From contig NZ_JAFBCZ010000002.1 of the NCBI RefSeq assembly GCF_016907925.1, positions 62,001 through 126,000 of the forward strand: a stretch of DNA of 64,000 nucleotides, given 5' to 3'. The stretch is from Herpetosiphon giganteus (GTDB taxonomy: Bacteria > Chloroflexota > Chloroflexia > Chloroflexales > Herpetosiphonaceae). The notes beneath the pieces are model-generated. The model ran no database searches and had not been told where the DNA came from. It saw nothing but the letters and a program-made list of their open reading frames with translations. This document shows, in pieces, positions 6,160 through 9,912 of the stretch; position 1 is the stretch's first letter, and each line of letters opens with the position of its first letter. Both the position numbers and the translations under genes were made by a program.

Positions 6160-7206
6160 TTAGTACAAGTCAGCCAAGACTGAATCGAGGGCTTCTTTGG
6201 TTGGGCGGAGTTGTTCTGCTGAGAGATGGCTCAATGGCTGTTCGTCCATGTGCAACAAATCGTGAATCGTGCGATTGTTGTCTTGCTTCACATAAATCAA
6301 GCCAGTGATAAACTCTTGGTTTTCGCGAGCGGCATCCAAGCGTGACAAGGCAGCAACCCGATTGGTTGGGTCGTAATCGGTCTCAAGTTTTTTGAGCACA
6401 ATTGTCGAGCCGTCGTGCATCTTGACTGGAATTGCTTCGCCTTCTTCGTAATCAACCGTGATTTCTTCTTGGGCGCGGATGAAGGTCATGTCGTGCAGAC
6501 GTTCTTCGTGTTCCTTGCCATACGCATAGCTCTTGGTTGAATCTTCGTGGTTGTTGAAGGTTACACATGGGCTGATGATGTCGAGAATCGCCAAACCACG
6601 GTGGCTCAAGGCTGCCTTGAGCAAGGCTTCAACTTGGCGTGGGTCGCCTGCGAACGAGCGCGCAACAAAGGTTGCGCCACCAATGATCGCTTCTGCACAG
6701 AGATCAATTGGCGGGAGTTCGTTCAAGCCAGCATATTTCAGCTTTTGGCCGATGTCGGCGGTTGCTGAGAACTGACCCTTGGTCAAGCCATACACGCCGT
6801 TGTTTTCGACGATGTAGACCATTGGTACGTTACGGCGCACCAAGTGCTTGAATTGGCCCATCCCGATCGAGCCAGTATCGCCGTCGCCGCTCACAGCCAA
6901 GCCAACCAAATTGCGGTTGGTGACGATTGCACCAGTTGCAACTGAGGGCATGCGTCCGTGAACGCTATTGAAACCATGTGAGCGACCTAAGAAATAGGCC
7001 GGAGTTTTCGATGAACAGCCAATGCCGCTGAATTTAGCAACTTGGTAGGGCTGAACACCTAATTCGAAACAGACCGACACAATCCGTGATGAGATTGAGT
7101 CGTGGCCACACCCGGGACACAGCGTCGAAGGTGCGCCTTTGTATTCACCTTGTTCAAACCCAAGCAGGTTAATTTTTGGCTTGGGAGTCGCTTTGGTCGT
7201 TGCCAT
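6160..7206 (-). CDS. korB: 2-oxoacid:ferredoxin oxidoreductase, beta subunit
   Basis: A 348-residue thiamine-diphosphate subunit. Residues 30-35 (CPGCGH) and Cys64 in GIGCSS supply iron-sulfur ligands, with a further Cys in ISPCVTFNNHE. GDGD at 107-110 and NN at 135-136 form the ThDP/Mg2+ binding motif. Paired with the alpha subunit it oxidatively decarboxylates a 2-oxoacid, most likely 2-oxoglutarate, to the acyl-CoA while reducing ferredoxin. Only 3 bp separate it from korA, whose last codons contain the ribosome-binding site AAGGGGAAG, so the two are coupled. The substrate is inferred from family resemblance and not proven. Confidence 0.9.
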   Translation of the reverse strand: MATTKATPKPKINLLGFEQGEYKGAPSTLCPGCGHDSISSRIVSVCFELGVQPYQVAKFSGIGCSSKTPAYFLGRSHGFNSVHGRMPSVATGAIVTNRNLVGLAVSGDGDTGSIGMGQFKHLVRRNVPMVYIVENNGVYGLTKGQFSATADIGQKLKYAGLNELPPIDLCAEAIIGGATFVARSFAGDPRQVEALLKAALSHRGLAILDIISPCVTFNNHEDSTKSYAYGKEHEERLHDMTFIRAQEEITVDYEEGEAIPVKMHDGSTIVLKKLETDYDPTNRVAALSRLDAARENQEFITGLIYVKQDNNRTIHDLLHMDEQPLSHLSAEQLRPTKEALDSVLADLY

Positions 7207-7209
7207 GGC

Positions 7210-9045
7210 CTATGCTTCCCCTTTTTGTACTGATTCGGTAACCCAGCGGGCGGTTAATGGCAAGCCATCGCAGCTTGCAACAGCAATAATCCGGCCAGCT
7301 AATTCTGGGTATTCCATCCGCAACAATTGTGCCATTTGACCGTTGTAGTTGTTATCAACCACGTAGATGCGTTCGTATTTGGCCACAAATTCGCCAACTT
7401 CTTTGGTGAAAGGCAATGCCCGCACCCGTTGGTAGGCGGCGTTGATGTTGGCTTCGCGCAAGCGATCCAAGGCTTCGATAATTGCTGGATCGTTCGAGCC
7501 ATACGAGAGAATCCCAATCGTGGCGTTTTCTTCGTTGACCGTGATTGGGGTTGGCACGATGGTGCGCGCAGTTTCAAACTTACGAGCCAAGCGATCCAAG
7601 TTGGCGACCCACTCGTCTGAGCGTTCGGTATACTTGGCATCTTGGTTGTGGCCTGAACCACGCGTGAAGTAGGCTGCTTTAGGATGATTGGTGCCTGGCA
7701 GCGTGCGATATGGAATGCCATCGCCATCAACATCGCGATAGCGGCCCCAATCACCGACGGCGGTCAAGGCATCGGCATCGAGCACCTTACCCCGATCCAT
7801 TGGCTCGGTTGGGTATTCGAATGGCTCAGAGATCCATTGGTTCATGCCCAAGTCGAGGTCGCTGAGCACAAACACAATCGTTTGCAAGCGTTCAGCCAAA
7901 TCGAATGAGCGCCAGCCAAACTCAAAGCATTCTTTGATGCTTGAAGGCAACAAACAAACGTGTTGGGTATCGCCGTGGCTCAAGAAATAGGCTGAGATCA
8001 AGTCGGTTTGGCCGGTGCGGGTTGGCATCCCAGTGCTTGGCCCCATCCGCATCACATCCCAAACCACACATGGAACTTCGGTAAAATAGGCCAAGCCGGT
8101 AAACTCAGCCATCAACGAAAGCCCAGGGCCTGAGGTTGCGGTCATCGAGCGCGCGCCAGCCCAACCAGCACCAATAATCATCCCGATTGCAGCCAATTCG
8201 TCTTCTGCTTGCACTACTGCATAGGTTGGCTTATTGGTTTCTTTGTTGATGCGTAGTTCTGGCAGGTAGTCGTTGAGGGCATCGACCAAGCTGGTTGAAG
8301 GCGTAATTGGGTACCAAGCAACGAATGAAACGCCACCGAAGACCGAGCCAAGCGCGCCAGCTGCATTCCCATCGAGCATAATCATGCCCTTGGTTTTGTC
8401 CATGCGCTCAACGCGGAATGGTGATTGGGTGGTGATGTTGGCAGCAGCCCAGGCCACAGCAGCATTAACCACATTCATATTCGAGGCAATAGCTTTTTGC
8501 TTGCCCTTGAAGTGCTTGTTCAAGGCACTTTCGATTTCGGCAACTTCAATGCCAAGTAAATGGGCTAAGACTCCAACATAGACCATGTTGGCAATATAAT
8601 CGCGCAAGCTGGCATCGACCCCTGAGTTCTTCACCAATTCCTTAACTGGCATTGGGAAGTAGGTCACGTCGCTGCGCGAAAGCTCTTGGCGCGAATCATC
8701 AGGATACAGACAAATCCCACCTGGCTCAAGCGATTGAAGGTCATCGCCAAAGCTGGCTGGATTCATGGCCACCAAAACATCGCGTTTGTGACGGCGAGCT
8801 TGATAGCCATCCTTGCTCAAGCGAATTGAATACCACGTGGGTAAACCTTTGATGTTTGATGGAAACAGGTTTTTGCCTGTTACCGGAATACCCATGTTGA
8901 AACAAGCACGGAGGATGGTATTATTGGCGGTTTGGCTCCCGGAACCATTGGGAGTAGCCACAATAATCGCGAAGTCGTTAATATTCACGTCCTCACGGGC
9001 GATTTCAGCGGGCTGTTGCTCCGTCTGATAATCTACGACTGCCAT
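7210..9045 (-). CDS. korA: 2-oxoacid:ferredoxin oxidoreductase, gamma-alpha fusion subunit
   Basis: A protein of about 611 residues from the ATG at 9045, which is preceded by AAGGAGAA. Upstream in-frame codons give an untypical extension. The N-terminal 200 residues are the gamma-type domain (ATPNGSGSQTANNTIL, then GLPTWYSIRLS). The remainder is the alpha domain, with GNAAGALGSVFGGVSFVAWYPITPST and AGARSMTATSGPGLSLMAEF, and a C-terminal domain from TIGILSYGSNDPA. It supplies the pyrimidine-binding and CoA parts of the active site formed with KorB. The gamma-alpha fusion is the usual two-subunit architecture. It is transcribed from a consensus promoter about 420 bp upstream through a long, apparently structured leader. 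Confidence 0.9.
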   Translation of the reverse strand: MAVVDYQTEQQPAEIAREDVNINDFAIIVATPNGSGSQTANNTILRACFNMGIPVTGKNLFPSNIKGLPTWYSIRLSKDGYQARRHKRDVLVAMNPASFGDDLQSLEPGGICLYPDDSRQELSRSDVTYFPMPVKELVKNSGVDASLRDYIANMVYVGVLAHLLGIEVAEIESALNKHFKGKQKAIASNMNVVNAAVAWAAANITTQSPFRVERMDKTKGMIMLDGNAAGALGSVFGGVSFVAWYPITPSTSLVDALNDYLPELRINKETNKPTYAVVQAEDELAAIGMIIGAGWAGARSMTATSGPGLSLMAEFTGLAYFTEVPCVVWDVMRMGPSTGMPTRTGQTDLISAYFLSHGDTQHVCLLPSSIKECFEFGWRSFDLAERLQTIVFVLSDLDLGMNQWISEPFEYPTEPMDRGKVLDADALTAVGDWGRYRDVDGDGIPYRTLPGTNHPKAAYFTRGSGHNQDAKYTERSDEWVANLDRLARKFETARTIVPTPITVNEENATIGILSYGSNDPAIIEALDRLREANINAAYQRVRALPFTKEVGEFVAKYERIYVVDNNYNGQMAQLLRMEYPELAGRIIAVASCDGLPLTARWVTESVQKGEA

Positions 9046-9261
9046 GAACGTATTCTCCTTAATTGGCTTCTTTGCCAGGTTATAGCCTCTAAAGATACTG
9101 CGAACCCAATGGTTCGTCAACCAACCAAAGCCGGTCTCTAAACCATAATTGTACGCCGTGATTGCTTTAGCTGCGATGTGTTCTGTCTATTATATCCATA
9201 GAGCGCGTCTATGAGAACAGGGGTTTTAGCCAGTTTTTAGCACACTTTTGTATTTTAGCAC

Positions 9262-9300
9262 TAAAAGAAGAACCAGCCGCTCTGTGCCATGGGCGGCTGG
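9262..9300 (-). terminator. Terminator-like hairpin in the korAB leader
   Basis: On the minus strand CCAGCCGC (9300-9293) pairs with GCGGCTGG (9280-9273), followed by TTCTTCTTTT. It lies about 215 bp upstream of korA, so it could act as an attenuator or end a separate small RNA. Confidence 0.6.
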
Positions 9301-9456
9301 CGTGCCAACTGGAGAGGGGAGAGAGGAGCACCGAGATGCGCAGTTGCCGCTACGCCCTCGTATCAATGCTGACGCTTTGCCAATGATGCATGTCCAGTGC
9401 TTCAGAACTGCGTCATAATAAAAACTGTTTTATCGGATAAATCAGTTTTTATTGAT
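9262..9456 (-). ncRNA. Candidate structured leader RNA or small RNA upstream of korA
   Basis: Starting just downstream of a consensus promoter, the minus-strand transcript would hold an 11-bp hairpin (9453-9443 with 9427-9417). Next come a GACGC/GCGTC stem and an ACTGGA/TCCAGT long-range stem. A nested helix follows, made of AGCA..CGAG with CTCG.TGCT plus an inner 5-bp hairpin. The terminator-like hairpin closes the region. The inner hairpin needs a G-U pair on the minus strand and would be a mismatch on the plus strand, which points to the minus strand. I do not recognise a known riboswitch class. GGCAAC and GGTGCT recall SAM-I elements, but the rest does not fit. Confidence 0.45.
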
Positions 9457-9462
9457 GGGCGT

Positions 9463-9491
9463 AGTTTACCCAAGGTTCGATTGTTTGTCAA
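9463..9491 (-). promoter_or_regulatory. Sigma70-type promoter for the korAB leader
   Basis: On the minus strand TTGACA (9491-9486), a 17-bp spacer, then TAAACT (9468-9463). The predicted transcript starts near 9456, immediately before the structured leader. Confidence 0.7.
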
Positions 9492-9509
9492 GTAGCAGTT
9501 TGCGAAATT

Positions 9510-9912
9510 ATGAAGGATGAAGGATGAGGGATGAAGTTGCTTGATCCACGAAGAACACGAAGTTTCACGAAGGATTATTTTTTAGCCACGAATTGCACGA
9601 ATTCCACGAATGAGCCATTCATCCTTCATCCCTCATCCTTCATCCTTTCTCTGTGCCTCTGCGTTAAAAAGTTGATCCACGAAGGGTTGAAACCGCGAAG
9701 GCCACGAAAAACGCGAAGGTATGTTTAGCCACAGATTGACTTCCCAATAGCCAAAAGCCTCATAGCCAATAGCCCTCATTCCTCTGCGCCTCTGCGTTAA
9801 AAATCTGATCCACGAAGTGCACGAAGGACACGAAGATGTGACTATTGGCTTTTGATTTCTGACTTTTGACTTCTGACTTCTTCCTCCCTCATCCTTCATA
9901 TTTCATCCTTCA
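9510..9912. repeat. Repeat cassette 2 between korA leader and the CBS gene
   Basis: GATGAAG units at 9510-9536 face TTCATCC units at 9618-9646, with a second inverted set at 9884-9912 that ends one base before the CBS gene stop. Inside are two or three copies of the ordered series CTCTGCGCCTCTGCGTTAAA, TTGATCCACGAAG(N)ACACGAAG, AACCGCGAAGG and AGCCACGAATTGCACGAATT, plus TTTTGATTTCTGACTTTTG text. No gene is seen here or in the remaining leader (9046-9261). Confidence 0.7.

Follow-up and report, generated by a model that had tools for sequence, protein, structure and literature searches.

Judging from its sequence, the DNA upstream of korAB in Herpetosiphon giganteus is most likely a separate small RNA gene that belongs to the genus Herpetosiphon. 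Comparison of six genomes gives good support to a predicted operator shared by this small RNA and iron acquisition genes. We propose, with a probability of about 63%, that the gene encodes a stand-alone iron-starvation small RNA that is controlled by the operator and whose C/U-rich loop would lower the translation of iron proteins without Hfq. Iron scarcity would probably switch its synthesis on, and the RNA may help in sparing iron. We also put forward, at somewhat less than even odds, a more ambitious version: an Hfq-free iron-sparing system assembled from scratch, in which the small RNA forms a family of its own, a novel roadblock operator doubles as its 5' hairpin and the C/U loop silences Fe-S enzymes. 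Coordinates without a prefix refer to the window, that is the whole stretch of 64,000 nucleotides that was analysed.

A probable small RNA gene upstream of korAB

The gene has the following parts, with the start of the RNA placed by promoter spacing and its 3' end by the terminator.

9463..9491, minus strand: small RNA promoter, sigma-70-type, TTGACA-17-TAAACT (TACACT as -10 in the five other species)
9263..9456, minus strand: predicted small RNA gene, ~194 nt, in 6/6 genus genomes
9453-9417, minus strand: AT-rich 5' hairpin of the RNA, its stem spanning the 33-bp operator
9419..9451, minus strand: 33-bp palindromic operator TAAAAACTGATTTATCCGATAAAACAGTTTTTA, common to iron-uptake operons
9370..9415, minus strand: second hairpin, closed by UGACGC/GCGUCA (predicted fold)
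9332..9360, minus strand: third hairpin, CGAG..CUCG (predicted fold)
9302..9331, minus strand: loop element with the C/U-rich single strand UCCUCUCUCCCCUCUCC at 9327-9311 (predicted fold), the proposed mRNA-pairing region
9263..9301, minus strand: intrinsic terminator, a GC-rich stem with the tail TTCTTCTTTT at 9272-9263

A sequence-only reading of this DNA had described a TTGACA-17-TAAACT promoter, an 11-bp hairpin, further stems and a terminator hairpin 215 bp ahead of korA. The promoter is indeed present at 9491-9463 on the minus strand, and two further stems, the C/U-rich loop, the GC-rich stem and TTCTTCTTTT were all found; from the terminator end to the korA ATG (9045) the distance is ~217 bp. 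The 11-bp hairpin is real too, although it is better described as a 33-bp palindrome, the shared operator. The last alternative of that reading, a ~195-nt small RNA, is well supported from sequence by its own promoter, its terminator and its conservation. In our alignment of six Herpetosiphon genomes, the window's species included, both the promoter and the intrinsic terminator are found in 6/6, which at the sequence level is the layout of a discrete non-coding transcript. A pattern scan detected the terminator of the H. aurantiacus copy (genome G001; 11 pairs, 8 of them G-C) and missed that of the window because its loop-closing pair is a C-A mismatch.

By blastn, the RNA is 97-98% identical between the window and each of the other five genomes of the genus. 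Across the six, mean pairwise identity is 98.0% for the RNA body (lowest pair 96.1%; 8/155 variable columns plus one indel column) and 99.2% for the 5' hairpin (1/40 columns variable); the corresponding values are 53.5% for the DNA upstream of the -35 (65/75 columns variable upstream of the promoter) and 76.7% for the spacer from the terminator to the korA promoter (18/45). Conservation, rather than fold energy, is the real evidence for this predicted feature. The minus strand folds modestly better than expected by chance (z -2.39, equalled by 3/200 shuffles) and the plus strand about equally well (z -2.20, 5/200 shuffles), so that fold energy alone is little proof. The six genus copies are so alike that compensatory base changes were seen in 0/58 pairs, which leaves the structure a prediction and not a proven fold. 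In the second hairpin the pairs are invariant in the six sequences, covariation neither supporting nor contradicting it; in the third, one species has U-A in place of a U-G pair, and of the other pairs one is lost in 1/6 and another in 2/6. The C/U-rich loop, invariant in 6/6 genus sequences, has an unpaired probability of 0.38-1.0 over its 17 bases (in the H. aurantiacus sequence) and is complementary to Shine-Dalgarno-type purine runs, i.e. to ribosome-binding sites.

As far as found, the predicted RNA is confined to one genus. No convincing copy outside Herpetosiphon was obtained by blastn against 158 genomes of the class and 400 of the phylum or with a covariance model in the 158 class genomes, and the small RNA had no match in the plasmid collection. 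We treated as chance two short weak blastn matches outside the genus in the class genomes (E 0.005 and 0.009), three covariance-model matches under stricter filters in the same genomes (E 0.006-0.07) and one 24-base blastn match in the phylum genomes, where two candidates were scored per genome (E 0.0006). With the longer query 9240-9720, among the matches listed, all those outside the genus sit in repeats beyond the RNA. When 62 korA loci were checked for exact motifs, an approach that would miss diverged RNA copies, both RNA ends turned up only in the three Herpetosiphon loci.

Two further points concern the surroundings and coding capacity of the stretch. Window positions 9500-9900 hold dispersed CCACGAAG- and TTCATCCTTCATCC-type repeats; their copies are numerous in each of the six Herpetosiphon genomes, and some other genomes of the order have shorter ones. 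A small ORF was considered and rejected by eye, unscored: the longer minus-strand frame is broken by a between-species indel in the RNA, and a plus-strand frame is without ATG in genome G003.

A shared operator

A second, weaker copy of the 5' hairpin was detected by blastn in four genomes (G000, G001, G004 and G005). In G000 this copy directly follows a TTGACA-17-TATACT promoter, and the gene that this promoter serves encodes a protein similar to structurally characterised ferric-iron-binding proteins (best E 7e-86). With <=3 mismatches allowed, the 33-bp pattern occurs at exactly two places per genome in 6/6 genus genomes, namely at the small RNA and at the ferric-iron-binding-protein gene (homology was tested in G000, and the other five genes were recognised by the same N-terminus). 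The pattern matches both strands because it is a palindrome. Reversed, it gave 0 matches in the six genus genomes at the same <=3 mismatches, and a 29-bp version of the operator is absent from the other 152/158 class genomes. When as many as 8 mismatches were tolerated, a scan of 2.0 Mb of H. aurantiacus and of the window brought out three additional places (6-7 mismatches), all of them directly behind a TTGACA-17-TATACT promoter, as well as one operator-like place in the window at 8 mismatches; the controls gave 6 matches for the reversed pattern and 1, 0 and 2 for three shuffled ones, all at 8 mismatches.

A matrix was then built from five loci with the fec sites left out, and of its three best new matches two were fec sites (scores 23.6 and 22.9, beside 23.8 for G001:C1:234704). 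One of these two fec sites follows a promoter scoring 11/12, and a promoter score of at least 10 is met ahead of random positions with a frequency of 0.0016. This is a fairer test than the full matrix, in which the small RNA's operator scores second in the set and whose score gap (35.4 vs 24.6) is partly circular, since that matrix was trained on the very sites that it ranks highest. The exact promoter-plus-operator pattern was found at 31 places in the six genomes and 0 in the reversed control; the small RNA escapes it because its -10 is TACACT or TAAACT. In the small RNA gene, the operator is placed just after the predicted transcription start. The site G001:C1:234704 (L154:14704-14736) is intergenic and operator-like, with no good promoter adjoining it and no iron gene recognised beside it, and is possibly a relic.

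A probable iron regulon outlined by the operator

In all six genomes, five operons have the operator again directly behind their TTGACA-16/17-TATACT promoters, and the 30 loci examined head one of these operons or, in G005 only, the gene of an FhuF_C protein. Homology of the operons was tested in one genome each, those of the other genomes being recognised by the same N-terminal letters.

Fe(III) ABC transport operon: 6/6 genomes
Imelysin (EfeO-like) and FTR1 iron-uptake operon: 6/6 genomes; the EfeU model matched below its cut-off
2,3-Dihydroxybenzoate (catecholate) siderophore synthesis operon: 6/6 genomes
FecCD siderophore uptake operon: 5 loci, with a sixth place (G005) recognised by promoter letters only
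Class-III aminotransferase operon: 6/6 genomes
FhuF_C-domain protein gene: L291:498-1439, G005 alone, at a sixth iron-type promoter

The small RNA has, in other words, a control site shared with iron-uptake genes, a hallmark of iron-starvation small RNAs. Two operator copies lie between the fec operon and divergent genes that we take, from their translation, to be sdhCAB (L197:577-1200; G001:C1:2020577-2021200). Of the two, the one closer to sdhC lacks a good promoter in front and might act on sdhCAB.

The siderophore cluster agrees with the myxochelin-like locus that the genome paper of H. aurantiacus describes (PMC3368417); according to the same paper, an mxcL aminotransferase is missing from the myxochelin cluster. 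MxcL makes a myxochelin by reductive transamination, according to another report (PMC9611931). A GSA-aminomutase-like class-III aminotransferase (L225:4425-5717; G001:C1:3984425-3985717) has the iron operator in 6/6 genomes, and this unlinked gene may encode the missing enzyme.

Proposed function and targets

In our proposal, an iron-responsive repressor would sit just after the start site when iron is plentiful and block the promoter, so that in iron shortage the RNA would appear together with the siderophore and iron-uptake systems. Its exposed C/U-rich loop would pair with the ribosome-binding sites of dispensable iron-protein mRNAs without the help of Hfq and would lower their translation, as do RyhB, FsrA and IsrR, of which the RNA would be a functional analogue. 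A search for Hfq gave no match in 6/6 Herpetosiphon genomes; the same search matched 5/14 controls, including E. coli and B. subtilis.

Target prediction over 1519 genes was too noisy to name any target and did not single out iron proteins; gene starts came from a simple script applied to 2.0 of 6.35 Mb, and the ranking is therefore rough and partial. Neither korA (691/1519 in one scoring, 443/1519 in another) nor korB (351/1519) is outstanding in this part of the genome, nor are the genes that we take to be sdhC, sdhB and sdhA (523, 901 and 1423 of 1519). One mRNA, whose product is presumably NuoB, ranks 45/1519 in this noisy and partial list. Pairing of the loop with the korA 5'UTR was equalled by 15% of 300 shuffled UTRs, and pairing of the whole RNA by 76% of 300. 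An iron-regulated small RNA serving something other than iron sparing, e.g. siderophore production, predation or another iron-linked trait, would suit both the well supported shared operator and a target prediction that named no target. We nevertheless hold such a role to be rather unlikely by analogy, as the iron-limitation RNAs of other bacteria, however dissimilar, share the sparing function (PMC11257911).

Relation to korAB

The genes downstream of the small RNA are laid out as follows.

9189..9217, minus strand: predicted korA promoter, TTCTCA-17-TATAAT, conserved and downstream of the terminator
7210..9045, minus strand: korA, 2-oxoacid:acceptor oxidoreductase alpha subunit, ATG start with AAGGAGA upstream
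6160..7206, minus strand: korB, 2-oxoacid:acceptor oxidoreductase beta subunit

From this arrangement korAB appears to be independently transcribed, and the korA promoter-like sequence has 91.7% mean identity in the six genomes. The closest korA relatives, 97-100% identical, are those of H. geysericola, H. llansteffanensis and H. aurantiacus. The korA 5'UTR (9045-9182) is itself highly conserved (96.4%); it contains a small hairpin, CGAACCATTGGGTTCG, and has 11 extra bases in three of the six species.

The sequence-only reading had favoured a structured leader of korAB with an attenuator, in which the korA transcript would begin with this RNA and read-through would depend on a conditional terminator. 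The RNA is co-directional with korA and a terminator hairpin precedes the gene; moreover, the conservation upstream of korA that this reading called for in relatives does exist, the RNA being kept next to korA in 6/6 genus genomes. Against a cis leader, the conserved korA promoter-like sequence sits after the terminator, and the alternative pairing of GGCGT with ACGCC, proposed as the switch, can form in the window but not in G004 and G005, so that the proposed mutually exclusive fold is lost in 2/6 species. Nor did Rfam provide a riboswitch: it gave 0 matches over the whole window at gathering cut-off and 0 over 9000-9600 at E up to 5, RyhB and riboswitches included. An iron-uptake operator in front of korAB would also mean more of its product, presumably an Fe-S enzyme, when iron is scarce. 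With no Rfam match, an unconserved pairing and a separate korA promoter-like sequence we rejected a riboswitch or attenuator and consider a leader of korAB improbable; a metabolite-sensing leader is likewise unsupported, there being no Rfam match and the first hairpin being best explained as the shared iron operator. The stretch was also rejected as 6S RNA, since it has no RF00013 match and the 6S RNA of the genome was located at G000:C8:196969 (65.7 bits vs a cut-off of 46.4).

A transcript that is iron-regulated and acts mainly in cis, with read-through polymerase disturbing the korA promoter ~45 bp past the terminator, would account for synteny fixed in 6/6 genomes and for an operator at the upstream promoter, but the conserved terminator should limit read-through and the RNA body itself is conserved, not only the promoter, which makes it very unlikely.

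Operator and candidate regulator

The repeated palindrome could also be an RNA element, i.e. a 5' stabilising hairpin or protein-binding site, instead of a DNA operator. Its promoter-adjacent copy lies within the predicted transcript in the small RNA and in all five operon families, and the arms pair well in the small RNA and in the leader of the Fe(III) transporter (14-15/16 Watson-Crick). Symmetry is, however, merely 9-10/16 in the imelysin/FTR1 and dhb copies, and the second fec copy (G001:C1:2020894) is upstream of the fec promoter and outside the transcript, which leaves an RNA element little probability.

The regulator that acts at the operator is probably one of the two Fur-family proteins of each species. 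The operator core TTWWNTC-N-GANWWAA has a 7-1-7 inverted symmetry, and 7-1-7 is the geometry of Fur boxes. Fur-family genes number two in each of the six genomes with a third in H. aurantiacus, and the locus of this extra gene has a matrix score of 16.7 near its far end. Autoregulation of the Fur genes was discarded, with weak matrix scores (<=13.4) in the two groups conserved in 6/6. The operator may already be catalogued in the Chloroflexi collection of RegPrecise 3.0, which, according to its description (PMC3840689), covers 5 genomes and apparently 30 transcription-factor regulogs. The DtxR family, which has one strong match per genome, was considered and rejected: the G000 match is best modelled as MntR, at 208 bits and below the cut-off of 350, and 4/6 loci show a TTTAGG[TC]ATGCCTAAA-like box, a different motif (judged by eye from the two best rows). 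A weak operator-like stretch is found downstream of the PerR-like Fur gene (L132:1934-1966 and the corresponding stretches of L130, L131 and L133-L135; scores ~9-13). The stretch in L132 precedes a gene that we take, from its translation, to encode a P-type-ATPase-like protein.

Comparison with known systems

The operator resembles Fur, PerR and Zur boxes in its 7-1-7 symmetric core and its position at iron-uptake promoters. Unlike them, it comes after the start site and extends to a palindrome of 33 bp whose arms read TAAAnAC; its sequence also differs from the Fur box TGATAATnATTATCA. It is no textbook Fur box. The RNA is similar in length to 6S RNA, whereas the 6S RNA of the genome lies elsewhere.

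Like RyhB of E. coli, the Herpetosiphon transcript is a predicted small RNA sharing its control with iron uptake, for which we propose an iron-sparing role. RyhB requires Hfq for its function, as stated in a published report (PMC11257911); in contrast, 6/6 Herpetosiphon genomes gave no Hfq match, and Rfam detected no similarity between the two RNAs. A putative iron-regulator site at the promoter is common to our RNA, to IsrR of S. aureus, where the site is a predicted Fur box, and to FsrA of B. subtilis. IsrR has C-rich regions able to pair with ribosome-binding sites, and these may be compared with the C/U loop of the Herpetosiphon RNA (PMC11257911 for IsrR). Unlike IsrR and FsrA, the Herpetosiphon RNA is without an Rfam match and belongs to another phylum, its targets are proposed only, and its operator lies downstream of the start site, inside the RNA.

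Searching titles and the starts of abstracts in the open-licence literature, we found no earlier report of a Herpetosiphon small RNA, and the open-licence literature gave no precedent for an iron-sparing RNA or a small RNA linked to iron in Chloroflexota, under Chloroflexi Fur regulons or under Herpetosiphon siderophores. If our reading is correct, this would be the first iron-sparing RNA of such a kind in Chloroflexota, within the literature searched. The operator delineates the iron regulon of this predatory genus and ties a so far unplaced aminotransferase to the synthesis of siderophores. Iron-starvation RNAs have dissimilar sequences and the same function across bacteria, and an example from Chloroflexota would add an independent case; coming from bacteria without detectable Hfq, it would show how such RNAs work without the chaperone.
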